From assembly GCA_030631125.1 (NCBI GenBank), contig DAOVLS010000010.1:1-17297 (forward strand): 17,297 nucleotides of DNA, read 5' to 3'. Below, one piece after another: positions 240-17,297 of the stretch. A program made the position numbers and the translations under genes. Each line of letters opens with the position of its first letter. The first letter of the stretch is position 1. This DNA comes from Planctomycetales bacterium (lineage in GTDB: Bacteria > Planctomycetota > Phycisphaerae > SM23-33). The notes beneath the pieces are model-generated. The model saw only the letters and a program-made list of their open reading frames with translations. It did not search any database and had not been told where the DNA came from.

Positions 240-246
240 GGCGAAG

Positions 247-275: not shown

Positions 276-287
276 ATCCTATCGCGC

Positions 288-332: not shown

Positions 333-356
333 ACGCAACCCGAATAATCGGTTATC

Positions 357-385: not shown

Positions 386-412
386 GGAAACTTCTGTGGA
401 GTCCAAACCCGA

Positions 413-1759: not shown

Positions 1760-1788
1760 CCTGGGAGGTGCCGGGTGGCGCCTTCAAG

Positions 1789-1860
1789 CGTAGCGAAGCG
1801 GAGCTTGTGGATGCTCTACCTCGCTGTCCATCCGATACCCACAACCTCCGCTTCGCTACG
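1789..1860. repeat. Inverted repeat downstream of rarA
   Basis: Arms 1789-1803 and 1846-1860 are perfect 15-bp reverse complements (CGTAGCGAAGCGGAG). After one mismatch, six more inner pairs form between 1805-1810 and 1839-1844, leaving a 28-nt loop. There is no T-run after it, so it is not a classical terminator. It shares the GCGAAGCGG string with the palindrome at 288-332. The surrounding gap 1760-1984 holds nothing else I can name except a short 6-bp stem at 1901-1917. Confidence 0.65.
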
Positions 1861-1984
1861 GATCATCCTGCAAACTCGATAACAAATCCGTCTTGTAAAT
1901 AATCCCGCCGGGGGATTCTTCCGATATACAGCATGTCCGGTTACGAAAGGAACGGTGTTTGCACGTATCAGGAGGACATTACTA

Positions 1985-2833
1985 ATGTTGCAGGGGCCGG
2001 TGGCATCTCTGATAATTGGCGGGGGCGATAGGCTGGGGCAAATCGCAGCGGAGTCCCGGCGGATTGCTGTCGCCATTGACGTCAACCTTGAAATCTTCGA
2101 CGAACCGCTCACGGGCCAAATCCTTGTCGCCGACCGCCCTGCCGGACTGGCCGAGGTCGTCCCCGTAGCCCGCTCGCTGTCAGATGAAATCGTCCGCCGA
2201 GTGATTAAACATCGGAAACGTACAGGCCTGAATGTTACCTGCAAAAAGGACTGCGCCGCCTGCTGCCGATACCTCGTGCCGCTGTCGGTCCCTGAGGTGT
2301 TCTGCATGTGGGATGAACTCCAGGCCGCCCCGCCGACACAGCAGCAACAGGTCATATCTGCGTTTGTGAACGCCTCACAACAGATACTTCAGGCAGGCCC
2401 TCCCCCCGTCCCGCAAACCCGGATTACTTTGGGCGAAAATCCGCAGGATTCTCAAAAAGTCCTCAATCGCTGGTATGCCGGGATCGGCGTCGATTGTCCG
2501 TTCCTTGAGCGGGCAGTCTGCACGGCATATTCGTCCCGCCCTATCGCCTGCCGGGAACACATGGTTACCTCGTCTGCCGAACACTGCCTGCCCGAAAAGG
2601 ACAACCAGGCACGCCGGTTGGAATTGCCCTTCAGCATAGTCGAGGCACTGGGCATACTGTCCGCCGAAGTCGAAGACGTCGATCTTGAATCTGTGATGCT
2701 TCCTTTTGCGCCGGCATGGCGTCAGATTAATCACGGCCGCGCCCGGCGCACCTGGCCTGCGCCGGACCTTTTCGAGCATTTCGCTGCGATTGTCCACGAC
2801 CTTGCCTCCCGTCGCCGATCCGCCGCCGCCTGA
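1985..2833 (+). CDS. YkgJ-family cysteine-cluster protein (putative metal-binding)
   Basis: A 282-residue protein carrying the CxxxCxxCC cluster of the YkgJ/UPF0153 family. Cysteines 86, 90, 93 and 94 form [10 protein letters not shown] second group, C171, C179 and C189, lies in CPFLERAVC...RPIACREH, and C201 follows. Members are thought to chelate zinc or iron, but no reaction is established. The ~80-residue N-terminal extension before the cluster and the tail after residue 210 are not recognised. ATG 1985 is preferred because GGAGG at 1971-1975 sits 9 nt upstream; an in-frame GTG at 1955 would add 10 residues but has no clear ribosome-binding site. The gene ends 70 nt before mutS and is probably co-transcribed with it. 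Confidence 0.85.
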
Positions 2834-2903
2834 AACGCCGGACGCGGACGACAGGGTGGGGGCTTGCTCCGACTCTCCGTGTTGTCTATTATCGTTCCCC
2901 GTC

Positions 2904-5576
2904 GTGAGCGCCGAAAAACCCCAACAACTCGACACGCCGGCGATGAGGCAGTACCGGCAGTTCAAGGACAAGTACCCGGATTACATCCTGCTGTTTCGGA
3001 TGGGCGATTTCTACGAGATGTTTTACGAGGACGCCAAAATCGCCAGCCGGGTGCTGGGCATCGCCCTGACCAGCCGGTCCAAAGGCCCGTCGGCCATTCC
3101 GCTTGCGGGGATCCCGTATCACGCCCTCGATTCGTACCTTGCCAAGATGGTCCGGGCGGGCCGGCGCGTCGCTATTTGTGAGCAGGTTGAAGACCCAAAG
3201 CAGGCCAAGGGCGTCGTAAAGCGGGATGTTGTCCGCCTCGTTACGCCCGGAACGCTGACCGAAGAGAATCTCCTGGAGCAGCGCGAGGGTAATTACCTCG
3301 CGGCGGTGTTCGATCCGGAAGACCGCGGACAGAACCCACGCAGCGCAGTGCGTGGGCCTGGGGGGACATCAAAGAGTCAAGGGGCGCACCAGGTTGGTAT
3401 TGCGTGGGTGGAGGTCTCTTCGGGCGCGTTTGAGGCGATGCTCGCGCCGGCCGACCACGTTATGGACGAGTTGGTTCGGATCAGACCGGCCGAGGTGATC
3501 GTCCCGGAGTCCTCGGCGATGGACGAGAGAGGTTTTCGCGATTCGCTGCGTCAGTACGTCGGGGCGGCGGTAACTGCCTGTCCGCCGTGGGCGTTCGAGG
3601 CGCACTCCGCCCAGGAACTGCTGAAGGAGCACTTCGGCACGGTTGCGCTGGCGGGCTTCGGCTTCGAGGAATACGACGCCTCGCTTTCGGCGGCAGGGGC
3701 TGTCATAGACTACCTGCGGCAGACGCAGAAGACCGCCCTTGCCCACATCGGCTCGCTCCGCCGGTTCGACCGGCTTGACCGTGTAATAATGGACGGCAAT
3801 ACCATTCGCTGCCTGGAAATCCTCCGCACGCTGCGGACGGGCAGACGGGCGGGGACGCTGCTTGAGAGCATCGACGCGACCGCCACCGGAATGGGCGCTC
3901 GGATGCTTGAGCGATGGCTGACCTGGCCGATGCGGTCGTACTCGTCCATCGTCGCCCGCCAGGACGCCGTCGAGGAACTTGCCTCCGACGGGTCGCGTCT
4001 CGTCCGCTTGCGGGCAGTGCTCGACGGTATGAGCCAGATCGACCGGGTCGCGTCCAATATCGCCCTCGCCCGCATCCGCCCGCGCGAACTGCTGGGCCTG
4101 GGCCAGACGCTAAGCCGGCTACCGGAGGTCTGCGAACTCCTGGCTGGGTGCAAGAGCGACCTTATCGCCTCTATCCCAGCCAAACTCACAGGTCTGGACG
4201 TCCCCGCCGACCTGATTGTCCGTGCGATCGATCCCGACTGCCCGCCGGTCATCCGCGACGGCGGGGTCATCGCCGAGGGGTTCGACGAGGAGTTGGACCA
4301 CCTCCGACGAATCGGAACCGACGGGCGGAACTGGCTGGCCGATTACCAGGCGCGCGAGGCCGGCCGGACCGGCATAGCGAACCTGAAAGTCGGATACAAC
4401 AAGGTCTTCGGCTACTACCTCGAAGTCAGCCACACCAACACCCCGAAGGTTCCCGCCGATTTCGTTCGCAAACAGACGCTCAAGAACGCCGAGCGCTACA
4501 TTACCGACGAGTTGAAGCGTTTCGAGTCCGAGGCCCTGACCGCCGCCGAACGCGCCGCCGCGATGGAGGCGAGACTGTTCGAGCAGGTCCGGGTCGAACT
4601 TGCCGGTTACGTCGGGCAGTTCCAGGCCGCCGCCGAGGCGATAGCGACGCTGGACGTGCTGTCGGCCTTTGCGCACCTCGCCGTCGATCGGAACTACCGC
4701 AGGCCGACCATTACGCAGGAAAACGTCCTGCACATCGTCGGTGGAAAGCATCCGGTCCTGGCCGAGACGCTCGGCGACCAATTCGTCCCGAACGACGTGC
4801 ACATGGACGCCGGCGATAATCGTCTTTTGATAATCACAGGCCCGAACATGTCCGGAAAGAGCACCTACATCCGCCAGACCGCGATCCTCGTGCTGATGGC
4901 GCAGACGGGCTGCTTCATCCCCGCCGACGAGGCTGTTATCGGAATCGTCGATAGGATATTCACCCGCGTCGGAGCCGCCGACGAACTTACCGCCGGGCTA
5001 TCGACCTTCATGGTCGAGATGATAGAGACCGCCAACATCCTCAACAACGCCACGAGCCGATCGCTGGTCATTCTCGACGAGGTCGGGCGCGGCACGAGCA
5101 CCTGCGACGGCCTGGCGCTGGCGTGGGCGATAAGCGAGCACATCGCCCTGCGAATCAAGTGCCGCACGCTGTTCGCCACGCACTACCACGAACTGACCGA
5201 ACTGGAAAGCCTTCTGGACGACACAGCCAACCTCAATGTTTCAGTCCGCGAATGGGCCGACGAGGTCGTCTTCCTTCACAAGATTATTCCGGGCGGGACG
5301 GACCGCTCCTACGGCGTGCACGTAGCGCGTCTCGCCGGCGTGCCGAAAGACGTAATCGACCGCGCCAGGACCATCCTGCCTCAACTCCAGGCGCACCTGG
5401 CCGAGGGACTGGACATGCCCGAACTGGCCGAACGCGCCAAGGCCGCCGCCGCTCAAATGAACCTCTTCGCCGACCCGGCCTCACGCGTCGCACGCGAAAT
5501 CAAGTCCGCCGACCTGAACGACATGACCCCGCTGGAAGCCCTCGACCTGCTGCGGAAACTAAAAAGCGAATTGTAA
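2904..5576 (+). CDS. mutS: DNA mismatch repair protein MutS
   Basis: MutS recognises mispairs and small loops and, with ATP, recruits MutL. About 890 residues from GTG 2904. With this start the mismatch-wedge Phe-x-Glu falls at F36 and E38, the same numbers as in E. coli, which supports the choice despite a weak ribosome-binding site. Alternatives are GTG 2856 and ATG 2943; the long open frame back to 2706 overlaps the upstream gene and is unlikely to be translated. Walker [10 protein letters not shown] is at 646-654 and Walker [10 protein letters not shown] from 725, followed by the [10 protein letters not shown] block. The C-terminus is the usual helical tail ending LLRKLKSEL. One oddity is an insertion of about 25 Gly/Ser/Arg-rich residues (about 139-163) encoded by a palindrome. 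A diverged copy of the last 83 nt occurs again at 6537-6619. Confidence 0.97.
3335..3356. repeat. Palindrome inside the mutS reading frame
   Basis: CCCACGCA (3335-3342) and TGCGTGGG (3349-3356) are perfect reverse complements around a 6-nt loop. The palindrome and its flanks are read in frame as part of a segment that E. coli MutS lacks, before the GIAWVE strand. This looks like an inserted palindromic element tolerated in a surface loop of the connector domain. Confidence 0.6.
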
Positions 5577-5755
5577 CAATTGCGGACTTGTCACGGCGCA
5601 GCCTTGGCGAAGCCGGATTGCGAATGACGGATTGACTGACTCACTATATTAAAATTGACAATCGTCAATTGACGCTGATAATTAAGAGCAGGTTCCATCT
5701 CAGGGTAAAATGGCATGTCAACAATCACGACTCTAACCCATGAAAGGAAACAGCC

Positions 5756-6517
5756 ATGAAAAGTAAAATGTTTTCCACGCTGTGCGCTATGCTTCTGGTT
5801 ACAGGACTGATTCTCGCAGGATGCGGGAAGGAAGAGGACACAAAAACACCCACCAAGCAAGACGAGAAGACCACCGTCAAGCCAGAAACCAAACCAGAGG
5901 TAAAACCCGAAGTCAAGCCTGAGGTCAAGCCTGAGGTAAAGCCTGAGGTAAAGCCTGAGGTAAAGCCTGAGGTCAAACCTGAGGTCAAACCTGAAGTCAA
6001 GCCTGAGGTAAAGCCCGAAGTCAAACCTGAGGTCAAGCCCGAAGTCAAGCCTGAGGTAAAGCCCGAAGTCAAACCTGTGGCCAAGCAGAAGACGCCATGG
6101 TCAGACGCCAAGGCCGGCGACACGCTCAAGTACAAGATGATCAACAACATGACCCAGACGCAGGTGGTTACAAAGGTTGACGAGCAATTCGCTTATGTGA
6201 AGATGATAACGGAAATGAACGGGAAAGAGTTGAACACGCTGGAGATTCAGATGCCCCGCTTCGTCCAGCCCGGCAAAGCCCCCGTCACCGGAACTAAACC
6301 CGAAATAAAAGACCTCGGAACCGAAACGCTTACCATCGCCGGAAAGAAGATTAAGTGCAAGGTAACAAAAATTAAGGTGAAGATGGGCGACAGGACGATT
6401 ACTTCCAAAACCTGGACCTCCAATGAAGTTCTCGGCGGAATGGTCAAAACCATGTCGGACGCTTTGGGTTCAATGCAGGTGATGATGGAACTGGTCGAAT
6501 TCAAAAAAGGCGGATGA
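5756..6517 (+). CDS. Lipoprotein with a tandem PEVK repeat
   Basis: A 253-residue predicted lipoprotein. The signal peptide has a basic MKSK start, a hydrophobic core and the lipobox LAGC with Cys23. After a short acidic/Lys linker comes PETK, fifteen exact PEVK tetrads (nt 5894-6073) and a closing PVAK. This highly charged, Pro-rich stretch of about 68 residues is probably an extended spacer that lifts the C-terminal domain off the membrane. The C-terminal ~145 residues, from TPWSDAKAGDTLKYKM, look like a small beta-rich soluble domain that I cannot name. Codons vary between repeats (gag/gaa, gta/gtc, aag/aaa), so the array is not brand new. AAAGGA lies just before the ATG. Base composition is less GC-rich than mutS, and the gene sits between mutS and a relic mutS tail, so acquisition by recombination is likely. 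Function unknown. Confidence 0.85.
   Translation: MKSKMFSTLCAMLLVTGLILAGCGKEEDTKTPTKQDEKTTVKPETKPEVKPEVKPEVKPEVKPEVKPEVKPEVKPEVKPEVKPEVKPEVKPEVKPEVKPEVKPEVKPVAKQKTPWSDAKAGDTLKYKMINNMTQTQVVTKVDEQFAYVKMITEMNGKELNTLEIQMPRFVQPGKAPVTGTKPEIKDLGTETLTIAGKKIKCKVTKIKVKMGDRTITSKTWTSNEVLGGMVKTMSDALGSMQVMMELVEFKKGG
5894..6073 (+). repeat. Fifteen tandem 12-nt units encoding PEVK
   Basis: Each 12-nt unit reads CCN-GAR-GTN-AAR. All fifteen keep the residues P-E-V-K while third positions drift, so the protein sequence is held constant. Copy number may vary between strains by slippage or unequal exchange. Confidence 0.95.
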
Positions 6518-6536
6518 GGTATCCATGCAATAGTAT

Positions 6537-6619
6537 GCGAAATCAAGTCCGCCGACCTGAACGACATGATGCTGCTGAAGGTACTCGACCTGTTACGAAA
6601 GTTAAAAAACGAGTTATAG
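6537..6619 (+). pseudogene. Relic copy of the 3' end of mutS
   Basis: These 83 nt align without gaps to 5494-5576, the last codons and stop of mutS. The first 33 nt are identical. The remaining 50 nt have 16 differences, many of them synonymous (CTG to TTA, CGG to CGA, AAA to AAG, CTA to TTA). The peptide [10 protein letters not shown] is kept, followed by a similar tail ending LLRKLKNEL and a stop. That pattern means the copy diverged while still part of a working mutS, so it probably came from another strain or species. It has no start or ribosome-binding site and should not be translated on its own. Confidence 0.8.
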
Positions 6620-6667
6620 AACAGATGCGAAACGGCAAGCCGTCCGGCTTGCCGTTTCGCATCTGTT
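6620..6667. repeat. Palindromic intergenic repeat, 23-bp perfect arms
   Basis: Arms 6620-6642 and 6645-6667 are exact reverse complements with a 2-nt centre. The core is a close relative of the palindrome at 288-332. It follows directly on the relic mutS stop codon and is followed by a short T-rich stretch (TCTTTT at 6671-6676), so it could also end transcripts. Confidence 0.75.
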
Positions 6668-6732
6668 GGTTCTTTTAATAGCGTGCGCCTCTTACAATTT
6701 ACGTGTTACATATTACCAGGAAGGTTTCAAAC

Positions 6733-8052
6733 GTGCCTGATTCAACGATGGTACAATCTACCGGACTAAGCCCCGCCCAGCGGCGGCGCGGGATGCGGTA
6801 TATCTACCTCGGTTCGTCGGCTGGGGCCGTCCTGATGATGCTGCTTATCCGGTCGGGTTTCGGAACGCTGTTTATCAAGCACCTGGGCGGTTCGGACCGT
6901 CTGGCGATGCTGCTTGGGGCAACAGTCGGATTTGCACGTATTTTTCAGATTCCCGTTTCGCTGCGGGTACATCCGGCGAACGGTAAAAAATTCATGCTCC
7001 GCTGCTGGACGGCGTATGCGCTGACCATGGCGGCGGTGGCTTTTCTCCCCACCATTATGGGAATCGGAGCATCAACTGCCCGGGCGGTCGTGTTGATCGT
7101 TTTTGTCGCCGTCGCAGTCGGGCAGTGCGGTTTCACTTTCTGGTTCCCGATTCTCCACGACGTCATTCCGGCTGACAAGCGTGGACGGTTCATCGGAAGG
7201 ATGCGTGCGTGGTGGAGCACCTCGGTATTTGTCGCGATCATCGCGGCAGGCCTGTTTCTCGGGAAGTCGCCGGCGATCTGGCGATTCCAGGTCGTCATCG
7301 TCATTGCTGCCTCGCTGGTGCTGCTCCGTAATTTTTTCGTTTCCAGGATTCCCGTCGCCGCCGAATCCCTCGCGCAGCAGGACGATTTCGGCGACTGGAG
7401 AAAGCACGTTTCAAACCTCCTTCGCCGCAACGACGTCCTTATCTTTTGCGGGTATTTCGCCGTTGTGGGGCTTTGCATCGGTTTCCTTGGCCAACCGCTG
7501 GTGCTTTACATGAAGCATATGGGATTTCCGACGAACGAGAACATTGTCATCACCGGTTTTACGATGCTGGGGACGATCCTGGCGCTTCTGATTGGTGGGC
7601 GACTCGTTGATCGCATAGGAACAAAGCGGGTCTTTGCCGCCACTCATCTGCTGTTGTGCGTAGTATGCTTTTCGGTTGTCGGTATCGGGATGTTGTCTCG
7701 CAGTCAGGCGAGGTTCTTCATGCCCGCCGCGTTGATTCTGGCCGGGGCTGCCCGGGCGGCCGGTTTCCTCGCCTGTACGACCCAACTGTTCCACCTGACG
7801 CCGGACAGGGGAAGAGCATTCTTCCTGTGCCTGGCGAATATACTGATATTCGTCGGGCCATCGGCAGCGCCGCTTGTGGCAGGGGTCGTCCTGTCGGCTG
7901 TACCGGCCGACTGGTCCACAACCGTAGCCGGGGTGGAACTGAACGTCTTCCAGGTCATGCTCGGTTTGAGCGGCGCAACGCTCCTGGCGGTGCTCGGACT
8001 GCTGCGGTTTGTAAAGGATATCCGCCCCGGGACGGATAAAGATGAATATTGA
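6733..8052 (+). CDS. MFS-type membrane transporter
   Basis: A 439-residue protein with about 12 hydrophobic spans in two halves and a polar central loop around the sequence QQDDFGDWRKHVSNLLRRND. In the second half GGRLVDRIGTKR (residues 288-299) matches the MFS motif A loop between spans; the equivalent loop of the first half is degenerate. Substrate unknown. GTG 6733 is chosen because AGGAAGG at 6718-6724 lies 8 nt upstream; the frame extends to a GTG at 6703 without such support, and ATG 6748 is another option. The last codons and the TGA stop (8050-8052) lie inside the foldback repeat at 8044-8160, so the C-terminus may have been rewritten by that element. Confidence 0.85.
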   Translation: MPDSTMVQSTGLSPAQRRRGMRYIYLGSSAGAVLMMLLIRSGFGTLFIKHLGGSDRLAMLLGATVGFARIFQIPVSLRVHPANGKKFMLRCWTAYALTMAAVAFLPTIMGIGASTARAVVLIVFVAVAVGQCGFTFWFPILHDVIPADKRGRFIGRMRAWWSTSVFVAIIAAGLFLGKSPAIWRFQVVIVIAASLVLLRNFFVSRIPVAAESLAQQDDFGDWRKHVSNLLRRNDVLIFCGYFAVVGLCIGFLGQPLVLYMKHMGFPTNENIVITGFTMLGTILALLIGGRLVDRIGTKRVFAATHLLLCVVCFSVVGIGMLSRSQARFFMPAALILAGAARAAGFLACTTQLFHLTPDRGRAFFLCLANILIFVGPSAAPLVAGVVLSAVPADWSTTVAGVELNVFQVMLGLSGATLLAVLGLLRFVKDIRPGTDKDEY

Positions 8053-8160
8053 ATAATGAACAAAGAATTTTGAATTACGAAGTGAAAAAACTCCTCTTAC
8101 AAAGGCGGCTTGTTTCTTTTACTTCAAAATTCGACATTCCCTGTTCAATATTCAATATTC
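8044..8160. repeat. Foldback repeat of about 117 bp between convergent genes
   Basis: Left arm 8044-8093 and right arm 8111-8160 are about 50 nt each and pair with roughly eight or nine mismatches. Both begin GAATATTGAAT when read inwards. It is AT-rich, unlike its neighbours. It may end transcription of the MFS gene from the left and of the vWA gene from the right. The rest of the gap, 8161-8216, holds a short AACGT/ACGTT stem and a GGCTAC-rich stretch. Confidence 0.65.
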
Positions 8161-8216
8161 TCTTATAACGTCGGGACGTTTTCCCAGGCTACCGGCTACT
8201 GACTACAGGCTACTAC

Positions 8217-9941
8217 TCATCTCGCCTGCGGGTCAGTCCATTTTCCGCCGCCGCCGCCGCTGGGACGCCAGGGGCCGAACGGGTAACGCTTCTCCTTCAT
8301 CGGCGCTTCGACGTATTCCATCAGCACATCGACGAACGGTCCCACCCGGTCGCGGTAGCCCTCTTCGAGCAAGGCCTTGAGCACCTCGCGGAGCACTATC
8401 CGGTCGGAGTCCTTGTCGTCCTGGGGCGGGGCTACGCCCATCCATCGCGAACCGCGGTACCGCCCCCGGAAATCGACCCACATACTCCGGCCTTTGCCCA
8501 GTTCGGCGATCTTGTCGAAGGACGCCAGGGCACGGTCGTAATTGGGCAGTTTTGTGCGGTATCGGTGGCGAGTGCGGACTTTGATACAGAAGAACCGGAA
8601 GCGTTTGTCCACAGACTTCGTTACCAATTTCTCGATTTTTTCCAGGCTCTTCTTTTGCGGCGGGGCGTCGCCGACGAGAACGACGATCTTACGTGCGGTT
8701 GAACTTTTCGACCACTTCTGCTTTCTGACGATGGTGTAGAGCGCCTCATAGACGGCTTCGGGGATGTCCCCTCCGCCCTTTGCGCCGGCGTTGCGGAGAG
8801 AATAGGCGAGTTTCTCGCCGCTGCCAAGAAGGGGAACCCCCTGCACGATATAGGCGTCCCCGTGGTCGCGATACAGCAGCACGCTTATCCGAGGCTCCCT
8901 GCTGATAAGTTCAAACGCCCGCATCATCCTGACCACGTCGCGCTTTATCCACTGAACGACGCTCCCCATCGACCCGGTGCTATCGACGGCAAATCCCACC
9001 TCCAGATTCTTCAGCCGAAGCCGCTTCAGTTCCAGGTCCTTGCTCCATTTTTTATCGCGAATGTTCGTGATTTTTTCGCCCTTCGGCATGACCCTCGACA
9101 GGCCGGCGTAAGGTGCGCCCGCGCCGATGTCGATTTCGTCGAATTTGGTTTTCTTAAACCACTTTACCCATCGCCGCTGAGTCGTAGCCCACATTTCGTC
9201 GGAACTCTTCTTGTTCAGCGTGGACGAAGGCTCGATGCCGCCGTGGACGCGCCGGAGAATAAACTCGGCGCGATAGGCGTAATCCAGTTCGCTCATCATG
9301 CTGATCAGCCCCTTGATAAGATCCGGGCTTTGCCATTCCCTCAACGCGTCGCCCATCGCTTCGAGCGTTCGGATGTCGCCTGGATTCAGCGAACTGGTGT
9401 TTTCGAAGAGCCACTTGAACAGTTGTTTATTCCTTGCCGTAGGCCCGGTGGCTCGCATCAGCCCGACCAGCCCCAGACGCAAATCGCCCCTGAAGGAGTT
9501 CTTCTTGGCGAGTTTGAACGCTCCGGAGACCCATCGTCCTCGCTGTTCGGGCGTCAGACGGTCCTGCCGGGCATGAAGGGCCTCCCATGCATATATCCGC
9601 ACGATGCGCGTCTTGTCGGTCTCCATCACCACCATCAGCCTCTCGGTAGTCCGCGGGTCGTCTATCTGCGCCAGGCTGATAACAGCCATTGTCCGCGCCA
9701 TCCAGTCCTTGCTCTTAAGGTGCTTGCCGTACATCTCGAGGTAATAATTGATGAACCGCTCAATCTTGGCGGCGTTTTGAGCGGCTTTCCCCGTAGTCGG
9801 TTGACTTGTCGCCGGGGCGGTGGCGGGAGTCGGCGCTCCAGAGGATGAAGAAAGAAAAACCAGCGCACACGCAAGGACCAGAAGCACGCCGACAATACTT
9901 TTGCGCAACGAAGAAATCTGCTGCATAACCTCGATCTCCAT
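8217..9941 (-). CDS. Exported HEAT-repeat / von Willebrand factor A domain protein
   Basis: A 574-residue protein. An N-terminal signal sequence or anchor (about residues 15-31) is followed by an Ala/Thr/Pro/Ser linker typical of secreted planctomycete proteins. Residues about 60-230 are helical with HEAT-like repeats. From about residue 312 a vWA domain begins: the MIDAS-like DSTGSM is at 320-325 (Thr in place of the second Ser of DxSxS), GGGDIPEAV at 389-397 and VLVGDAPP at 421-428. The C-terminal tail is Gly-rich. vWA domains with such sites bind a metal ion and protein partners; the partner is unknown. An alternative start is ATG 9924-9926 (569 residues), with GGAG 9 nt upstream, and I cannot decide between the two. 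It lies downstream of the GYF_2 gene on the same strand but has its own candidate promoter. Confidence 0.85.
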   Translation of the reverse strand: MEIEVMQQISSLRKSIVGVLLVLACALVFLSSSSGAPTPATAPATSQPTTGKAAQNAAKIERFINYYLEMYGKHLKSKDWMARTMAVISLAQIDDPRTTERLMVVMETDKTRIVRIYAWEALHARQDRLTPEQRGRWVSGAFKLAKKNSFRGDLRLGLVGLMRATGPTARNKQLFKWLFENTSSLNPGDIRTLEAMGDALREWQSPDLIKGLISMMSELDYAYRAEFILRRVHGGIEPSSTLNKKSSDEMWATTQRRWVKWFKKTKFDEIDIGAGAPYAGLSRVMPKGEKITNIRDKKWSKDLELKRLRLKNLEVGFAVDSTGSMGSVVQWIKRDVVRMMRAFELISREPRISVLLYRDHGDAYIVQGVPLLGSGEKLAYSLRNAGAKGGGDIPEAVYEALYTIVRKQKWSKSSTARKIVVLVGDAPPQKKSLEKIEKLVTKSVDKRFRFFCIKVRTRHRYRTKLPNYDRALASFDKIAELGKGRSMWVDFRGRYRGSRWMGVAPPQDDKDSDRIVLREVLKALLEEGYRDRVGPFVDVLMEYVEAPMKEKRYPFGPWRPSGGGGGKWTDPQAR

Positions 9942-9969
9942 CCCAATCCCTGTTTCCGGCGGGAAATAT

Positions 9970-9998
9970 AGTACAACTTAATTATACCCGGTTGTCAA
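9970..9998 (-). promoter_or_regulatory. Candidate promoter for the vWA gene
   Basis: On the minus strand TTGACA (9993-9998) is followed after 17 nt by TGTACT (9970-9975). The -35 lies within the last codons of the upstream GYF_2 gene. The predicted leader is about 20 nt. Confidence 0.5.
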
Positions 9999-10977
9999 GG
10001 CGTTGTTCAGGGTTGGATTCCCGCCGGCTTATCGACTGGAGATCGTCGTAAAACCGCGCATAGCCGACGCTCATGTACGGCACAAGGAAAATTAAACCTA
10101 TCCCGATGGTCAATACGCACAACAAGACCCAGCAGGCATACCGCAGCCCCAGGCAGAAGAGTTTTCCCTTGTAGCCTGCCATTATATCCCTGCTTCTGCG
10201 GATGGCGTCCATAGCGCCGATGGACGGGTTGTCGGCCAGCACGTAAAACGTCTGATAATACGCCAGTTGCGCTATAATGGCTGCAACATATCCCGGAATA
10301 CCCCCTGCTATCATGCCAACTACGAGTCCCGCCTCCGGATCCGTCGTAACGCCGACGATAATGCCCAGGATGATCCCCGGCATTGCAATCCCGAAAAACC
10401 AGAGCATCACAAACAATGCCACCAGCAGATGAGCCGCCAGGGCGCTACCGAAGTTCCTGAACCCGGCGAAGAGCATTCCGATCTCGGGCCGACCGGCGCG
10501 AATAAACGTCAGGAAGAAGATCACAGCCCCTAGTTGCAGAGGACCGGTAATGATCAGACTGGCGACGCCGCCGAGGTAGGGGATTAACTGGACGCCTATT
10601 TGGACCAGGATCATCAGCACGCAGAATCCGATCGCCAGACCCCACCGCCCCCGCAGAATTTCCCTGGCCTGTGTGTTCAGTTCCCAGTTCGGCGTCTGCC
10701 CGCCCGTCCCGACCCATATCGGGAAGCCTGTCCCGAGCTGTGTCGAGGGGCCTGTCCCGCCCGCCGGGGACGCATACACGTTGTCGGCCTGCACGGGAAC
10801 AGACCCGCCGCCGCCGAACAACCCGGGCACGGACCCTGCCGCTGCCCACTCGCTCATGCCGTCGGTCCACACCAGGTCCGCCGGCTTGATCCTGCCCTGG
10901 CGAATCCACGCCCGAAGGTCGTCTTCAGATACAGGCCCGTATTGTTGGCCGCCGATAAAACAGTACCACTGTCCCAT
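9982..10977 (-). CDS. GYF_2 domain / DUF975-type membrane protein
   Basis: A 331-residue protein. Residues 1-54 form a GYF_2 domain: MGQWYCFIGGQQYGPV opens it, and L-R-A-W-I-R-Q-G-R-I, the D-x-V-W and the M-S-E-W follow. GYF domains bind Pro-rich peptides in eukaryotes; the bacterial GYF_2 role is not established. A Gly/Pro-rich linker (55-98) leads to about five membrane spans between 113 and 302. The segment DAIRRSRDIMAGYKGKLF (257-274) and the PY...FYDDL ending resemble DUF975 integral membrane proteins. ATG 10977 is preferred, with a purine-rich GGGGGATAGG upstream; a GTG at 10995 would add six residues. The Pro-rich linker of the exported vWA neighbour could in principle be a GYF ligand, but the two are on opposite sides of the membrane if the GYF domain is cytoplasmic. 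Confidence 0.8.
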   Translation of the reverse strand: MGQWYCFIGGQQYGPVSEDDLRAWIRQGRIKPADLVWTDGMSEWAAAGSVPGLFGGGGSVPVQADNVYASPAGGTGPSTQLGTGFPIWVGTGGQTPNWELNTQAREILRGRWGLAIGFCVLMILVQIGVQLIPYLGGVASLIITGPLQLGAVIFFLTFIRAGRPEIGMLFAGFRNFGSALAAHLLVALFVMLWFFGIAMPGIILGIIVGVTTDPEAGLVVGMIAGGIPGYVAAIIAQLAYYQTFYVLADNPSIGAMDAIRRSRDIMAGYKGKLFCLGLRYACWVLLCVLTIGIGLIFLVPYMSVGYARFYDDLQSISRRESNPEQRLDNRV

Positions 10978-11038
10978 TTTTGACCTATCCCCCACGCCGC
11001 CGGAAGGTTACAGCATACCGGCGGCGATGTCAATTATT

Positions 11039-11046
11039 CAAATTAC
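11039..11046. repeat. Left 8-bp target-site duplication of the MITE-like element
   Basis: CAAATTAC at 11039-11046 abuts the left terminal inverted repeat and is repeated exactly at 11308-11315, abutting the right one. Confidence 0.75.
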
Positions 11047-11307
11047 GGCCTGGTTCAATTCAGGGTAACACTATGATGCAAAAGATTCTCATTCGTTGTT
11101 TTGTAACAGGCCCCCGCTTCAGCGGGGGTGCAAGGCGGTCATTCATTAACCCCCATTCCCTTTTCCTCCTCGTCCCTTGGGGACGAGGAGGAAAAGGGAA
11201 TGGGGGAATGCAAAAGACCCTTATATACCCCCGCTGAAGCGGGGGCCTGTTACAAAACAACATCAGGAACGACTGTTACCCAAAATAGATTGTTTTTGAA
11301 CCAGGCC
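11047..11307. mobile_element. MITE-like non-autonomous element (261 bp)
   Basis: Perfect 12-bp terminal inverted repeats GGCCTGGTTCAA (11047-11058) and TTGAACCAGGCC (11296-11307) are flanked directly by 8-bp direct repeats CAAATTAC. Inside are nested inverted repeats: GGGTAACA (11063-11070) with 11274-11281, a 35-bp perfect pair (11095-11129 with 11227-11261), and a 27-bp perfect pair around a 3-nt centre (11150-11176 with 11180-11206). No open frame inside is convincing, so movement would need a transposase supplied in trans. 8-bp duplications fit several IS families (for example ISL3 or IS1595) and I cannot say which. It occupies most of the gene-free stretch between two divergent genes. 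Confidence 0.8.
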
Positions 11308-11315
11308 CAAATTAC
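11308..11315. repeat. Right 8-bp target-site duplication of the MITE-like element
   Basis: CAAATTAC at 11308-11315, identical to 11039-11046 and directly adjacent to the right terminal inverted repeat. Confidence 0.75.
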
Positions 11316-11383
11316 CGGCTTATCCCCGATTTTATCTCGGTTCCCACAATAACTTTTTCCAATAACCGAGAGCAAAATGCGGG

Positions 11384-11412
11384 TTGACAGATTTGAAGAT
11401 TTGCCGCACAAT
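11384..11412 (+). promoter_or_regulatory. Candidate promoter for the PEP-CTERM gene
   Basis: A perfect -35 TTGACA (11384-11389), a 17-nt spacer, and CACAAT (11407-11412). The expected start is about 11419, right at the base of the leader helix described at 11420-11472. Confidence 0.55.
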
Positions 11413-11419
11413 AGCTCGT

Positions 11420-11472
11420 GTTTGCCTGGACTGAAAAAGGTCGATTGCGGAAAATCGACTCCGAAGGCAAAC
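11420..11472 (+). promoter_or_regulatory. Structured 5' leader of the PEP-CTERM gene
   Basis: GTTTGCCT (11420-11427) pairs with AGGCAAAC (11465-11472) as an outer helix. GTCGATT (11440-11446) pairs with AATCGAC (11453-11459) as an inner hairpin. A purine-rich internal loop lies between them on the 5' side. The structure begins at the predicted first nucleotide of the mRNA and ends 11 nt before the AAGGAGG ribosome-binding site (11484-11490). It could stabilise the mRNA or be a small regulatory RNA element. I do not recognise a known riboswitch class. Confidence 0.45.
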
Positions 11473-11496
11473 CTTAAAACTTAAAGGAGGAGTACT

Positions 11497-12360
11497 ATGA
11501 CTCGCAACCTGTTTTGTATTGTAATCCTTGCGCTTTGCCTGTTGGTCCTGGCCTCGCCGGTAAAGGCTGATGACGTCGAATTCGAAATCTTCAGTACGGA
11601 TTCCACCCACGGCGGGACAGCCGACACGTACTATGCCGAAATTGGCATATGGGGCGACGGTATCACAAAGGTCCGGCTGCACGACGGTTCTGACTGGACG
11701 GATTTCTACAAAGAAGGTTTCGGCGAGTTTTGGCTGGAAACAAACGCCTTCACCAACTTGGGCACCCTGATTGCCGACATCGAAGGTGCAGGCCAAAAAC
11801 TTGAGATTACCCACGGCGCCGGTGTAAGCGTCTATTCGTTCACCATCAAAGGCGGCGCCAGTGCGGAGTTAACCGCCATCGAAGCCAAAATGCCTGCTCC
11901 GACGCCTATCATCACAAGCGTTGTGCCCATAGGCCCGCAGGAGCAAAGGCTCTCGTGGACGTGGGGCGGAGACATTGCTGATGTTACCTGCCTGTGCGCG
12001 GGTGCAGAGGCTAAGGTCGGCGGGATATGGGAAGATGTGTGCGACAAATGTTCGGACGACGACCCGGCCGAGATTGACATAACAGACCTCTCGGTCGATA
12101 TTGACTTCTCCGGACATCCCGGCCCCTACCAGGAAATCGTGTACTGGGCGGGATACGGAAACCTGAATGATATCAGTGGCGGCGCCGGCACTCTAATCTC
12201 CGGCTGGACGCTTGATTCGGGCGACGAACTTTTCGACGGCGTGGACGACGAAGTGCTTGAAGTGTTCGAAGCGGAAGGCTTTGTAGTCATTCCCGAACCG
12301 ATGACGCTTTCGCTTCTGGCGATAGGCGGACTGGCCGTCCTGATTCGTCGCAAACGGTAA
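11497..12360 (+). CDS. PEP-CTERM sorting domain exported protein
   Basis: A 287-residue secreted protein. A signal peptide covers residues 1-24 (hydrophobic core, then SPVKA before DD). The mature part is acidic and apparently beta-rich. The C-terminus is a classic PEP-CTERM signal: the PEP tripeptide at 266-268, a hydrophobic helix and RRKR at the very end, which exosortase recognises and cleaves at the membrane. No exosortase is in the window. Four cysteines form C165-x-C167 and C182-x-x-C185, flanking a short loop, which may hold a metal or two disulfides. The consensus ribosome-binding site AAGGAGG lies 6 nt from the ATG, so strong translation is likely. Function unknown. A terminator follows directly. 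Confidence 0.9.
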   Translation: MTRNLFCIVILALCLLVLASPVKADDVEFEIFSTDSTHGGTADTYYAEIGIWGDGITKVRLHDGSDWTDFYKEGFGEFWLETNAFTNLGTLIADIEGAGQKLEITHGAGVSVYSFTIKGGASAELTAIEAKMPAPTPIITSVVPIGPQEQRLSWTWGGDIADVTCLCAGAEAKVGGIWEDVCDKCSDDDPAEIDITDLSVDIDFSGHPGPYQEIVYWAGYGNLNDISGGAGTLISGWTLDSGDELFDGVDDEVLEVFEAEGFVVIPEPMTLSLLAIGGLAVLIRRKR

Positions 12361-12382
12361 GAAAACCAGACTGTTAAAATTT

Positions 12383-12414
12383 CAGGGGACGCCATGTCAA
12401 CATGGCGTCCCCTG
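12383..12414. terminator. Bidirectional intrinsic terminator
   Basis: CAGGGGACGCCATG (12383-12396) pairs perfectly with 12401-12414 around a TCAA loop. TTCTTT follows on the plus strand and AAATTTT on the minus strand, so it can end both the PEP-CTERM gene and the convergent small gene. Confidence 0.85.
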
Positions 12415-12445
12415 TTCTTTAAACCGTTCAGGCCCGAAGGTCGTG

Positions 12446-12901
12446 CTAATGGGCGATTCCATCCGTTGTTATGTGAATGGTTCGCGGTTCGCCCCGGCTT
12501 GGAATTCGCGCCACCTCAAGAACCTTTTTACCGTTCTTGAACTCCAGGAGTAACACAATCGCCTCAAACTGAACGTAGTCCCGTTCTCTTCCGAGAGGCG
12601 AATTCTTCCAGCTGCATTGGACGTCAACGGTAAAGGAATCGCCGTCTAATTCCGGGACATCTTTGAAGTCAAATGCCGTAGCAGGGTCACTGGAACGTTG
12701 AATGAAGTCCCTTGCCACGGCCTCATTTGGCATGACGGCGTAAGCGACTTTAGTGAGCGGAGTCGTGGCGGTGGACTTAACAATCACCGTAACCGGGAAC
12801 CGCCCGTCGCACATAGCCACCGTGCCGAATTCATAAAGTAAGAATCCGCCGACTACAAGCAACACGATAACAGCAACAAACTTGCCTGTGATGAACCTCA
12901 T
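12446..12901 (-). CDS. Small membrane-anchored hypothetical protein
   Basis: A 151-residue protein with one N-terminal hydrophobic segment (about residues 8-26) and a soluble remainder of about 125 residues, probably outside the cytoplasm. No family recognised. The soluble part begins with an alternating beta-like run (RFPVTVIVKS). GGAG lies 9 nt before the ATG. It follows pckG on the same strand after 56 nt with no terminator between, so it may be co-transcribed with it, though no functional link is evident. Confidence 0.7.
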   Translation of the reverse strand: MRFITGKFVAVIVLLVVGGFLLYEFGTVAMCDGRFPVTVIVKSTATTPLTKVAYAVMPNEAVARDFIQRSSDPATAFDFKDVPELDGDSFTVDVQCSWKNSPLGRERDYVQFEAIVLLLEFKNGKKVLEVARIPSRGEPRTIHITTDGIAH

Positions 12902-12957
12902 CGGTGAATACTCCGTACAGGCAAATCATACTCACCAGATAAAGTTGCTGCCAACAG

Positions 12958-14832
12958 TTAAATGTCCATCGGGCTGACGTAATCACCCTTTTCGGCACGG
13001 ACGGCCTCCAGACGCCGGCGCTGGGCGGCGAAAGTCTCGAAGACCACCTGCGGCGTGTCGTCAATGTCCCGATAAATCTTCTCGATGCGCTCCAGTTTGG
13101 CGAGGTTCTCGCCGATGCGGAGTTTGAACTGCTCGGCGTAATCGGCCTCGGTGTAATCTTTATCGAGCACCTCGGCGAACAGCCGCTTGATGTCCTCATA
13201 TTTCGGGATAAGCCCGGTCGGCGTCTCGATGACATCGACGTCGCCGTTGGCTCGAAGTTCAGCCCACTTGACCCATACGGCCTTGTCGAGCATACCGTTG
13301 AGGTATTTCCCGTCAGCGTCCCTGAGGAAGTAGTTGACGCCGAAGATCGGTGGAACCGCTTTCAACGACTCGCCGAAGTCGAGGTTGTTCTGGATGTACT
13401 TGCCCAGCGGGACGGCTACGAAGTCCATATTGCTCATCAGGTTGAACTTTCGGACGCCTTCTGCCCCAAGTGTCGCCGAGGTCGTCTCGCTTTCAAGCGA
13501 GGCAGCGATCGTGATGATGCCGTGTGTCCAGTCGAACGCCTGCTGGACGGGAACGCAGGTGTCGCTGTCGCGCCCGCCGTAGATTATTCCGCCGACGACC
13601 ACGCCGGCAGGGTCGTCCAGCGCCTCATCGACATTTTCCAGCCTCGCAAGGTTGACCGTATATCGAGCGTTCATGTGCGAGGCGGTGATTTCCTTACCGT
13701 CGGCGTCCCTGGCCCCTGCGGCCCAGTCGCCGCTGTGGTTGAAACCTGATTTCGGCAATTCGCCGCCCATCCCAAGCCAGTACGGTTTCTTATCCGTGAT
13801 AAGGACGTTGGAGAAAATCACCTCGCCCGGCTTGGTCAGAACGTCGTGAATGACAGGGTCGTCGGTCGGGTTGACGTCGCGGATGATTCCGAAGATACCG
13901 GCTTCGACGTTGACGGCGCGGGCTTGGCCATCAACTTTGCGGAAGTAGGCGATGTCGTCGCCGACGATGCTCTCGCCCGGCAGCATTGCCGTGGAGGTCT
14001 TCCCGCAGGCGGACGGAAACGCGCCGGTGAAGTAGGTTTTTCTGCCGCCGGGGCCGTGGACGCCCATGACGAACATGTGCTCCGCCAGCCATCCTTCGCG
14101 GTCGGCCTTGCGAATCGCCAGGCGGAGGGCGAGTTTCTTCAGACCTATGGTGTTTCCGGCATATTGCGAGTTGGAGGTATAGACCGTCTCGTCCTCGATG
14201 TCGATATAGACCCGCCGATTGTCGATGTCGGATGACGTATTGTTGTCGGCCAGCCGTCCTGCACTATGCAGAAAGTGGAAGAACTCGCTGCTGTCGCCGA
14301 TCCGACTGAACTGCTCGTATCCGTGGCGATACAGCAAATCCTCGCTGTGAGCGACGTAAGACGAATCGGTAACCTGCACGCACGGGATACTGAACTCGGA
14401 ATTGACGGGACCGAGGCAGAAGAACCGCACCATCGCGACCTTTCCGGTCATTGCACCGTCCAGGAAGCCGCGAATTTCCGCCAGACCCTCTGTGCGGTCG
14501 ATGCTGTTGAGCCGCTCGCCGAGGTCCACGCCCTTCGGCAGGAGATACTTCGTCCGGGCAACGTCGCGGGCCTGGTCGTGGTAGCCGTCGAAGTGGATCG
14601 TGTGGCCTTCAATCGCAAGGGCAGTCTCTTCATTCCTGTCCAGCGCCAACTGACGGATATAGGCGATGTCTTCGGGCGAATCTGTGCTGACGAAGACCTT
14701 CTCCGGCTTGCACAGGTCAATAGCCTCGGCTACGAAACGGTGCATCGCCGGATTCTTCAGCGCCAGCAGTTTCGCCAGGTTGGTCTCGTCCAGTCTTTCA
14801 GCCAGAATGTTTGCGTACTCATCGCTACTCAT
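12958..14832 (-). CDS. pckG: Phosphoenolpyruvate carboxykinase (GTP)
   Basis: A 624-residue enzyme that interconverts oxaloacetate + GTP with PEP + GDP + CO2 in the cytoplasm, the entry step of gluconeogenesis or, in reverse, anaplerosis. The P-loop GAFPSACGKTS lies at about 270-280, with the PEPCK-specific cysteine, and the metal-binding VGDDIAYF at 290-297. The substrate-loop block LGPVNSEFSIPCVQVTDSSY precedes them. The length and the FPSACGK motif indicate the GTP, not the ATP, class. The P-loop is followed by STAML where many bacterial and animal enzymes have NLAM. ATG 14832 is chosen because CGGAG lies just upstream; an in-frame ATG at 14865 would add 11 residues but lies in a hairpin loop. 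It is divergent from the PPDK gene. Confidence 0.95.
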   Translation of the reverse strand: MSSDEYANILAERLDETNLAKLLALKNPAMHRFVAEAIDLCKPEKVFVSTDSPEDIAYIRQLALDRNEETALAIEGHTIHFDGYHDQARDVARTKYLLPKGVDLGERLNSIDRTEGLAEIRGFLDGAMTGKVAMVRFFCLGPVNSEFSIPCVQVTDSSYVAHSEDLLYRHGYEQFSRIGDSSEFFHFLHSAGRLADNNTSSDIDNRRVYIDIEDETVYTSNSQYAGNTIGLKKLALRLAIRKADREGWLAEHMFVMGVHGPGGRKTYFTGAFPSACGKTSTAMLPGESIVGDDIAYFRKVDGQARAVNVEAGIFGIIRDVNPTDDPVIHDVLTKPGEVIFSNVLITDKKPYWLGMGGELPKSGFNHSGDWAAGARDADGKEITASHMNARYTVNLARLENVDEALDDPAGVVVGGIIYGGRDSDTCVPVQQAFDWTHGIITIAASLESETTSATLGAEGVRKFNLMSNMDFVAVPLGKYIQNNLDFGESLKAVPPIFGVNYFLRDADGKYLNGMLDKAVWVKWAELRANGDVDVIETPTGLIPKYEDIKRLFAEVLDKDYTEADYAEQFKLRIGENLAKLERIEKIYRDIDDTPQVVFETFAAQRRRLEAVRAEKGDYVSPMDI

Positions 14833-14886
14833 TGGTAACTCCGGGAATTTCGCCGGGAATCGCATCCCGGCACTATGTACTCCACA

Positions 14887-14906
14887 CCTGCCTGACGATA
14901 GGCAGG
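14887..14906. repeat. Short hairpin in the pckG leader
   Basis: CCTGCC (14887-14892) pairs with GGCAGG (14901-14906). A second stem, GCCGGGA (14852-14858) with TCCCGGC (14865-14871), lies between it and the pckG start. Both would be in the roughly 80-nt leader and could affect translation. Confidence 0.4.
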
Positions 14907-14917
14907 AACGAGGCTGA

Positions 14918-14947
14918 ACTTTACACCGATTCGCGCCCGTCTGTCAA
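14918..14947 (-). promoter_or_regulatory. Candidate promoter for pckG
   Basis: On the minus strand a perfect TTGACA (14942-14947), an 18-nt spacer, and TAAAGT (14918-14923). The predicted leader is about 80 nt. Confidence 0.55.
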
Positions 14948-14987
14948 GGATATTGACCGGAAAAAGTTCCTGTCAAAGCGAAATTCG

Positions 14988-15016
14988 TTGACAAGGCCGC
15001 CGAAGGAAATTAGATT
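14988..15016 (+). promoter_or_regulatory. Candidate promoter for ppdK
   Basis: A perfect TTGACA (14988-14993), a 17-nt spacer, and TAGATT (15011-15016). Its -35 is only 40 nt from the -35 of the opposing pckG promoter, so one bound regulator could influence both. Confidence 0.6.
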
Positions 15017-15092
15017 TATCCGCTCGTTGTGTGAAACCGCAGGCGGGGGCGGAAAATACCAAAAAATCAAACCTGATTGGAGAAATGCAGTA

Positions 15093-17297
15093 ATGGCAAA
15101 GAAATCAAAGAAGTACGTCTATTTCTTCGGCGGCAAAGGCACTGAAGGCAAAGCCGCGATGAAGCAACTTCTGGGCGGCAAGGGCGCGAACATGGCCGAG
15201 ATGTGCAGACTGGGACTGCCCGTTCCCGCCGGTTTCACCATCACAACCGAAACATGCGATGCGTTCTATAAACTCGGACGCAAATATCCGCCGGAACTCG
15301 ACGGGCAAATCGCCGCGAATATCAAAAAACTCGAAAAACTCACCGGCAAGACCTTCGGACGAGGGCCTAACCCCCTGCTGGTATCGGTCCGCTCAGGTGC
15401 GGCAGTCTCCATGCCAGGAATGATGGACACCGTCCTGAACCTCGGGCTGAACGACGAAACGCTCCAGGCAATGATCGACCTGACCGGAAACGAGCGATTC
15501 GTCTGGGACGCATACCGCCGATTCATGCAGATGTTCGGCGACGTTGTCCTGGGTATGGAACACCACGACTTCGAGCACGCACTCCAGACAGTCAAGACCC
15601 GCCGAAAAGCCAAACTCGACACCGACCTGGACGTCGCAGGACTCAAGGACGTCGTAGCCGAGTATAAGAAGGTCTATAAAAAGGCCCGCAAGACTTTCCC
15701 GCAGGATGCGCGTAAGCAACTAATCGCTTCGATGGACGCGGTCTTCGGCTCGTGGAACAACTACCGTGCGGTTAAGTATCGCCAGTTGAACGACATTCGA
15801 GGCCTCATCGGCACAGCCGTCAACGTTCAGGCGATGGTATTCGGCAATATGGGCGCGACCAGCGGCACAGGCGTCGCCTTCACGCGTAACCCCGCCACCG
15901 GCGAAAACAAGTTCTACGGCGAATACCTCATGGACGCCCAAGGCGAAGACGTCGTAGCCGGTATCCGAACGCCACACCCAATCGCCAATCTCGCCAAAGT
16001 GGACGGCAAATCCTATCGGCAACTGATGAAAATCCGAAGCCAACTGGAAAAACACTACCGCGACATCCAGGACGTTGAGTTCACCATCGAACGCGGAAAG
16101 TTGTACATGCTCCAGACGCGCTCCGGCAAACGCACAGCCGCTGCTGCCGTCAAAATCGCCATCGATATGATGAAAGAAGGCCTCATCAGCGAAAAAGAGG
16201 CCGTCCTGCGAGTCGATCCGAAATCGCTCGACCAACTCCTGCACCCGACCTTCGACCCCGCCGTTGAAAAGAAAGCCAACAAAATCGCCGAAGGACTGCC
16301 CGCAAGCCCCGGAGCAGCAGCAGGAAAAATCGTCTTCAACGCCCACGAAGCCGAAATACAGGCAGAGATGGGCGAGCCGGTTATTCTCTGCCGGATCGAG
16401 ACCTCACCCGAAGACATCGGCGGAATGGACGCTGCCCGCGGAATCCTCACCAGCCGGGGCGGAATGACCAGCCACGCGGCTGTCGTCGCTCGCGGAATGG
16501 GCAAATGCTGCGTAGCCGGAGCCGGCGACGTAGTGATGAACTACGCCAAAAAGACACTCACAGCCAACGGAAAAACGCTCCGCGAAGGCGACTGGATCAG
16601 CCTCAACGGCTCGATCGGCGCAATCTACGCCGGCAAGGTCGCCTCCGTCGAGCCGAAACTATCAGGCGCGTTTTCTGCGATAATGAAACTTGCTGACAAG
16701 TACCGCACGCTCGGCGTCCGCACAAACGCCGACACGCCGCATGATACACAGGTGGCTGTCAAGTTCGGAGCCGAGGGCATCGGCCTGACGCGGACGGAGC
16801 ACATGTTCTTCGAGGGCGACCGTATTATCGCTATGCGCGAGATGATCCTCGCCGAAGATGAGGCTGGGCGTAAGAAAGCCCTCGCCAAACTCCTGCCGCT
16901 GCAGCGGCGCGATTTTATCGGCATATTCAGGGCTTTGAAGGGTAGGCCGGCGACGATCCGCCTGCTGGACCCGCCGCTGCACGAGTTCCTCCCGCACGAC
17001 CAGGCCGGGCAGGCCGAAATGGCCAAAGTCATGGGCGTGTCGGCTGCGAAAATCAAGGCCGCCGTCGAAGCGCTCCACGAGTTCAACCCGATGCTCGGAT
17101 TCCGAGGCTGCCGACTGGGAACCATCTATCCCGAAATCACCGCCACGCAGGCCCGCGCGATATTCGAAGCCGCCTTCGAGGTCCGTGGCGCACAGCCGGA
17201 AATAATGGTCCCGCTCGTCGGGCACGTAAAGGAACTGGCTGGGCAAAAGCAGATTATCCTCGACACGCTGGCCGATGTCCTGGCCGAGCGAGGGAAG
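15093..17297 (+). CDS. ppdK: Pyruvate, phosphate dikinase, 3' end missing
   Basis: 735 residues of an enzyme usually about 880-910 long; the frame is open to the right edge. PPDK interconverts pyruvate + ATP + Pi with PEP + AMP + PPi. The N-terminal nucleotide-binding domain starts with the FFGGKG...GGKGANMAEM block and includes SVRSGAAVSMPGMMDTVLNL (about 94-113). The phosphohistidine domain has GGMTSHAAVVARG with catalytic His at 461, close to His455 of the Clostridium symbiosum enzyme. The C-terminal PEP/pyruvate barrel is present up to the VPLVGHVKEL strand; its catalytic Cys lies beyond the window. GGAG at 15079-15082 is 10 nt before the ATG. A sigma70-like promoter lies upstream. Confidence 0.96.
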   Translation, partial: MAKKSKKYVYFFGGKGTEGKAAMKQLLGGKGANMAEMCRLGLPVPAGFTITTETCDAFYKLGRKYPPELDGQIAANIKKLEKLTGKTFGRGPNPLLVSVRSGAAVSMPGMMDTVLNLGLNDETLQAMIDLTGNERFVWDAYRRFMQMFGDVVLGMEHHDFEHALQTVKTRRKAKLDTDLDVAGLKDVVAEYKKVYKKARKTFPQDARKQLIASMDAVFGSWNNYRAVKYRQLNDIRGLIGTAVNVQAMVFGNMGATSGTGVAFTRNPATGENKFYGEYLMDAQGEDVVAGIRTPHPIANLAKVDGKSYRQLMKIRSQLEKHYRDIQDVEFTIERGKLYMLQTRSGKRTAAAAVKIAIDMMKEGLISEKEAVLRVDPKSLDQLLHPTFDPAVEKKANKIAEGLPASPGAAAGKIVFNAHEAEIQAEMGEPVILCRIETSPEDIGGMDAARGILTSRGGMTSHAAVVARGMGKCCVAGAGDVVMNYAKKTLTANGKTLREGDWISLNGSIGAIYAGKVASVEPKLSGAFSAIMKLADKYRTLGVRTNADTPHDTQVAVKFGAEGIGLTRTEHMFFEGDRIIAMREMILAEDEAGRKKALAKLLPLQRRDFIGIFRALKGRPATIRLLDPPLHEFLPHDQAGQAEMAKVMGVSAAKIKAAVEALHEFNPMLGFRGCRLGTIYPEITATQARAIFEAAFEVRGAQPEIMVPLVGHVKELAGQKQIILDTLADVLAERGK

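Follow-up and report, generated by a model that had tools for sequence, protein, structure and literature searches.

A 261-bp MITE of a Planctomycetales bacterium with the ends of a poorly catalogued DDE insertion-sequence family and a probably REP-like foldback interior

The window, as we call the whole 17,297-nt stretch analyzed here (contig DAOVLS010000010.1, positions 1 to 17,297 of the forward strand, assembly GCA_030631125.1, from a Planctomycetales bacterium), carries at 11047–11307 an element of 261 bp whose inverted ends match perfectly over 12 bp; it is enclosed by 8-bp direct repeats, CAAATTAC, and lies between a GYF_2/DUF975 protein gene on the minus strand and a PEP-CTERM protein gene on the plus strand. 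A first-pass annotation had taken it for a miniature inverted-repeat transposable element (MITE) that sits between divergent genes and has no credible coding frame. The repeats it named are exact in letters and coordinates, the gene arrangement is as it described, and the element contains no open reading frame (ORF) of at least 80 aa, the two ORFs overlapping it having their starts outside. The combination of an exact 12-bp terminal inverted repeat (TIR) with an exact 8-bp direct repeat immediately beside it is found a single time in the window, where about 5e-5 would be expected by chance according to our own arithmetic; the shuffles of the TIR/direct-repeat search covered looser criteria only. 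The element is composed of the following features.

11039–11046, no strand: left copy of the 8-bp target-site duplication, CAAATTAC; a single CAGATTGC stands in the empty site of a relative (locus L002)
11047–11058, plus strand: left TIR, GGCCTGGTTCAA; the ends of the parent insertion sequence (IS) are near-identical
11064–11070, plus strand: inner motif GGTAACA of the L-type end, 5 nt in from the left TIR; same offset in 7/7 IS L ends
11103–11128, plus strand: left REP-like (repetitive extragenic palindrome-like) unit, GTAACAGGCCCCCGCTTCAGCGGGGG, tag plus palindrome, 26 nt; the 26-mer also occurs in loci of genomes G009, G016 and G023
11150–11206, plus strand: central perfect hairpin with 27-bp pyrimidine/purine arms and the loop TTG
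11228–11253, minus strand: right REP-like unit, repeating the left one in inverted orientation
11274–11280, minus strand: inner motif GGTAACA of the R-type end, 15 nt in from the right TIR; this offset in 5/6 IS R ends
11296–11307, minus strand: right TIR, TTGAACCAGGCC
11308–11315, no strand: right copy of the 8-bp target-site duplication, CAAATTAC; compare the empty site of L002

Nearly the whole element is a foldback, with arms of 82 nt each (11095–11176 and 11180–11261) that are 84% complementary, and as DNA it folds with an energy of −103.5 kcal/mol, whereas shuffled versions average −34.4 (z −18). Three layers can be distinguished in the foldback: outer arms of about 55 nt, the inverted pair of the 26-nt unit GTAACAGGCCCCCGCTTCAGCGGGGG, and the central perfect 27-bp hairpin, which is pyrimidine-rich on one strand. 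The interior is thus an inverted pair of GTAACAGG-tagged palindromes. A search of Rfam with the element at the gathering threshold gave no match.

The insertion itself can be read from close relatives, five of which were reached through a scan with PEPCK (loci L001–L005, PEPCK 84–90% identical). L002 (CSMAG_3057) aligns with the window on both sides of the site, and a single CAGATTGC stands where the window has CAAATTAC, the element and CAAATTAC again. The sequence 11047–11307 has no match in any of the five loci. This is the one clean empty site among them: L004 and L005 align as far as the insertion point and then diverge, the GYF_2/DUF975 gene is missing from L001, and L003 does not extend over the site. 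Related copies are found elsewhere in the same group, since BLAST of the element at an E limit of 10 gave matches in all five related genomes (G001–G005), the best in each ranging from 1.5e-28 to 3.8e-6. A scan for ends, defined as the TIR with at most three mismatches plus GGTAACA, over 54 fetched loci (L083–L109 and L130–L156, many of them overlapping) returned 26 distinct ends, a number that includes three core- or coding-like matches (L085, L105, L097) and the doubtful L132. Complete pairs, each of one L and one R end, occur in five loci and delimit full-length related copies of 165 bp (L088), 310 bp (L093), 293 bp (L101), 347 bp (L130) and 277 bp (L135). Short, non-coding and bounded by TIRs, flanked by a target duplication for which an empty site exists, and present in multiple copies in related genomes, the element is a non-autonomous transposon (MITE).

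Two further structures were observed in G002. One is a 67-bp element (L084/L112) that corresponds to the left arm alone and has an exact 8-bp duplication, CACCACAG; its second end is the core-derived GACCTGTTACAA, the counterpart of GGCCTGTTACAA of the core. The other consists of two contig ends, L107 (G002:C207) and L155 (G002:C251), which resemble halves of one element with the same DDE ends and contain a giant GAGCCGCGAC hairpin, so that the assembly seems broken inside a palindrome.

A parent with the same ends and a transposase exists, though it was not found in G001–G005. It came to light through a 35-nt match of the element (E 0.02) in an Acaryochloris marina plasmid, which marks one end of an IS that has decayed (L082, 1370–3034); an intact relative of this IS encodes P0001, a protein of 491 aa that is annotated as a hypothetical protein in the plasmid record and as Transposase in UniRef. 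Genome G014 holds an intact 1,714-bp IS copy, L160, with the exact 8-bp duplication CGAATTTG, whose transposase, P0121, is listed under a Phycisphaerae bacterium, and G601 holds another intact copy, L203, without a duplication. The targets CAAATTAC, CGAATTTG and CAATTAC- are AT-rich, and that of the 67-bp element, CACCACAG, is not. Every IS or MITE end compared starts with GGCNTGGTTCAA or a near variant. The TIR itself is no independent evidence, because the IS ends were found by their likeness to it; the offsets of the inner motif are independent. GGTAACA stands 5 nt after the end sequence in all seven IS ends on the transposase-5′ side, and on the 3′ side it stands 15 nt after it in five of six and 16 nt in the sixth, the motif having one change in four of these six. 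The MITE of the window has offsets of exactly 5 and 15 nt, so that this asymmetric layout is common to IS and MITE. With the TIR removed, the right end of the MITE compared with the right ends of L082, L157 and L203 beats all 1,000 shuffles. The left end compared with the seven IS left ends is weak (1, 38, 55, 51, 174, 53 and 284 of 1,000 shuffles score as well, L082 being first), and some cross comparisons of ends score equally well. These comparisons left out the partial ends of L159, L164, L166 and L204, which by eye have the same offsets. The first of these, L159, belongs to a Burkholderia latens plasmid with a truncated transposase of the P0001 family beside an IS66 element. The Acaryochloris transposase fragment used as a query found nothing in 10 genomes. 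Neither the element nor P0001 had a match among phages, and the single match of a pattern scan of viral contigs, L081, was set aside as chance, since by eye it resembles coding sequence without a second end. The three things the first-pass annotation had proposed looking for, namely an empty site, further copies, here in related genomes, and a full-length IS with like ends, have all turned up, which upholds its view of the element as a MITE.

The transposases of this family are 491–503 aa long. The two members tested, P0001 and P0121, fall below every Pfam and NCBIfam cut-off, and at E 1e-3 P0001 has at least 6,682 relatives among 8,000 scored candidates and P0121 at least 6,337 among 7,998. 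None of the 120 relatives listed for either protein has a precomputed Pfam domain, and the source names among them are hypothetical protein, save the one UniRef name. Among genomes drawn around G002 and G014, family matches, some of them fragments, were seen in 2/60, 5/392 and 6/298. No PHROGs match was better than E 0.0027, and none was of known function. A first structure model, poor in its core (pLDDT 70, pTM 0.43), was followed by a second from 67 rows; the predicted fold is an RNase-H/DDE core with a helical insertion, to which ISCth4 appears nearest, and the candidate catalytic residues D156, D210 and E433 are invariant or nearly so in alignment A4. ISCth4 is presumably a member of the IS256 family, and an 8-bp target duplication is characteristic of that family. 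The parent IS is like it in the predicted RNase-H core with a helical insertion and in the 8-bp duplication but differs in falling far under the NCBIfam IS256 cut-off of 150 (15.5 bits for P0001; no match at E 0.1 for P0121) and in having weak DDE_Tnp_ISL3 matches. These occur in 9/67 members at E 0.1 with a best E of 0.0012, and the score of P0001 against this Pfam model, 14.4 bits, is under the cut-off of 23 for ISL3 membership. The parent, a DDE insertion-sequence family that is IS256-like by its predicted fold, is poorly catalogued and has thousands of relatives. Among the titles and opening lines of abstracts that literature searches returned, none describes the IS family of P0001; ISfinder, which lay outside that search, may hold a name for it.

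The interior points in another direction. Nine of 60 relative genomes match the element at E 0.001, and in G007, G009, G016 and G023 the matches fall in core units, often paired 150–240 bp apart and, in G016, also single. Loci of G009, G016 and G023 contain the exact 26-mer of the window; with one place in G023, L183, the window has 34 nt in common, made up of core and inner flank. Elements with other ends enclose the same core. Those we term type C, of which eleven G023 copies of about 280 bp align, have ends beginning with GTGAGCGACC; their members (L183–L194, L196, L197 and L231), many in G023 and some in G009, show the end pattern GTGAGCGACCT.TG.TTCTGGC around the same core. Nine type C end pairs were read (L183, L186, L188, L189, L192, L194, L196, L197 and L231), and a duplication read by eye from the flanks, a manual reading of 9 bp and not an automatic result, amounts to 9/9 in L192, 7/9 in L231 and 6/9 in L194, the other six having no clear duplication. 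Type B elements in G003 (L113, L115, L117, L118, L120, L126 and L128) have the ends GTAACCGTTCAGGC and variants of the core. Their duplication is indistinct, and L120 has an 11-nt direct repeat, TAATTTTTTTA. Such sharing bears on the plainest alternative, that an internal deletion of the IS was made palindromic by template switching and that the REP-like core is a mere hairpin with no second origin. Consistent with correction by template switching, the arms of the central hairpin are alike within copies (0.92–1.0) and many are unlike between copies (0.40–0.96), three type B copies in this comparison having one arm in common; moreover, the interiors of other elements with these DDE ends (L107/L155, L144, L146) are by eye unrelated, and the core lies on both sides of a Y1 gene at one locus only. 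Convergence, however, hardly explains an identical 26-mer in elements with unrelated ends or the 34 nt in L183, and we regard this alternative as unlikely.

That locus, L239 of G023, contains a gene for a 140-aa Y1 protein that is flanked on both sides by core units of 35 nt in inverted orientation; the two units are 94% identical and are a variant of the unit in the window. L241 (G057) also has a Y1 gene, a relative of the one in L239, with a AGCCCGCTTCAGCGGGCT palindrome nearby. Y1_Tnp genes were found in all nine matching genomes (73 matches in total), which by itself means little because 5 of 14 control genomes also have them. Across the 30 Y1 loci, an inverted repeat of some kind spans the gene in 23. 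The copies L130 and L135, which have the DDE ends of the window MITE, contain a different REP pair, laid out as a small palindrome, 9–17 nt and a TAGCC palindrome, and this layout is also found beside Y1 genes, inverted on both sides in 7/30 loci. The element of the window shows the inverted pair of palindromic units of a REP doublet, and like units flank a Y1 gene at L239. Since its core unit occurs in elements with other ends and flanks the L239 Y1 gene on both sides, the element is probably a chimera, in which DDE ends surround a REP-like doublet. The flanking of the L239 gene could also be taken to mean that a REP doublet mobilized by a Y1 transposase is the active part and entered an older MITE at the site in the window. 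The duplication abuts the DDE ends, however, and arms and core are both missing from the empty site, so the window copy moved as one unit: the DDE ends made the insertion, and the interior would have been its cargo and not its mover. Entry of a mobile doublet at this site is very improbable, an argument that covers the window copy and not a nesting event in an earlier one.

We consequently favor, with a probability of roughly 0.8, a MITE ended by a DDE IS whose foldback middle was built on inverted REP-like palindromes such as flank Y1 genes (RAYT/TIRYT-type). Several observations weigh against it. On the side of the ends, among the five IS copies whose two ends could both be read, L160 alone has a duplication, and L082, L157, L162 and L203 have none; a near-exact duplication (7/8, CAATTACA/CAATTACC) is confined to L093 among the five full-length related copies; the Foldseek TM-scores to ISCth4 are low (0.32/0.39); and the family transposase is found in 0/5 of G001–G005, and none of the five is among the matching genomes listed in the 298-genome search, a listing in which the row for G003 is missing. 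On the side of the interior, the exact 26-mer is absent from the fetched G001–G005 loci, which carry variants; the tag in the window is GTAA in place of the GTAG or GTGG of REPs, GTAG being present in some copies of relatives; and core units are found in only two of the 30 Y1 loci, L239 and L231, both in G023. A type C element does lie near the Y1 gene of L231, but that gene has its own, different 35-nt inverted repeat, and L231 was therefore not counted. The link to Y1 thus comes down to one of 30 Y1 loci, L239, with none in the fetched loci of the genus. A broader version of the idea, that REP-like doublets of Y1 systems spread as cargo in MITEs of at least two unrelated DDE IS families (type A, to which the 8-bp duplication belongs, and type C with about 9 bp), seems to us slightly less than an even bet.

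In the movement of such an element, the transposase would be supplied in trans, perhaps from a source now gone from the genus, and would recognize a bipartite binding site, the TIR plus the inner GGTAACA. It might then excise the element as double-stranded DNA and join it to a target with an 8-bp stagger. The REP-like interior would ride as a passenger, and the foldback may help by drawing both ends together.

The first-pass annotation had also suggested that the insertion reshaped the control of both neighboring genes, for which the following features matter.

9982–10977, minus strand: GYF_2 + DUF975 protein gene, ATG at 10977
11028–11033, minus strand: putative −35 TTGACA of the GYF_2/DUF975 gene (TGTCAA on the plus strand), conserved in L002, L004 and L005
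11384–11412, plus strand: putative promoter of the PEP-CTERM gene from a scan, TTGACA-17-CACAAT (TTGACA at 11384–11389), conserved in L001 and L002
11497–12360, plus strand: PEP-CTERM protein gene (TIGR02595, 21.2 bits, cut-off 16)

The putative PEP-CTERM promoter begins 68 bp past the right repeat, and shuffles average 0.7 such sites. The putative −35 of the GYF_2/DUF975 gene, which the promoter scan did not report, is 13 bp outside the element, and the DNA upstream of about −48 of that gene has been replaced by the element. An insertion retained because it altered one of the two promoters, a notion compatible with the other readings, would suit this position between divergent genes and next to a conserved −35-like hexamer. 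Yet the insertion has broken neither −35 hexamer and has left both putative core promoters whole, the scan detected no promoter within the element itself, and the aligned L002 site lacks the element. We think such retention quite improbable, and an effect on the flanking genes, which may nonetheless exist, is a weakly supported suggestion. The first-pass interpretation accordingly held for the MITE, fared poorly for regulation, and had overlooked the foldback interior and its likely second origin. Two other observations were made nearby: in L005 (10036–13446) the VWA/HEAT gene beside the GYF_2/DUF975 gene is doubled in tandem and is single in the window, and an ORF of the window at 5756–6517 has a long EVKP repeat that matches relatives out of register.

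The findings name the parent of a MITE group through a searchable end layout and draw attention to an IS family whose relatives number in the thousands and are mostly unnamed or hypothetical in the sources. If the element is indeed a chimera, the spread of REP-like palindromes need not rest on RAYTs only, because DDE elements can carry them, and this would bear on the scatter of palindromes in genomes where RAYTs are absent or decayed. If the interior is cargo, a planctomycete mobile element would have been built from two transposition classes, single-strand Y1 and double-strand DDE.

MITEs derived from DDE elements, such as Correia and RUP (named in PMC2817692), are similarly short and non-coding, with TIRs, a target duplication, an IS with matching ends and hairpin potential, while the ends in the window come from an IS family whose tested members are below the Pfam and NCBIfam cut-offs, and the interior is a REP-like doublet common to elements with other ends. 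A published arrangement places RAYT genes between two inverted REPs or between long TIRs (PMC2817692, PMC3733652), and RAYT/TIRYT-type repeats have been reported in Planctomycetes (PMC3733652). REPtrons, TIRtrons and REP doublets (PMC3733652, PMC2817692) resemble our case in their inverted palindromic pairs, their flanking of Y1 genes and their many copies in some genomes; the doublet of the window differs in lying inside DDE ends with an 8-bp duplication and in its tag, GTAA, with GTAG in some copies (L184, L113). The titles and first lines of abstracts returned by the literature searches describe no REP doublet inside DDE MITE ends. A likeness in cargo is offered by a Porphyromonas gingivalis MITE (PMC4596501), which also carries a repeat within its ends, but there the repeat is a minisatellite and not a REP-like doublet linked to another class of transposase.
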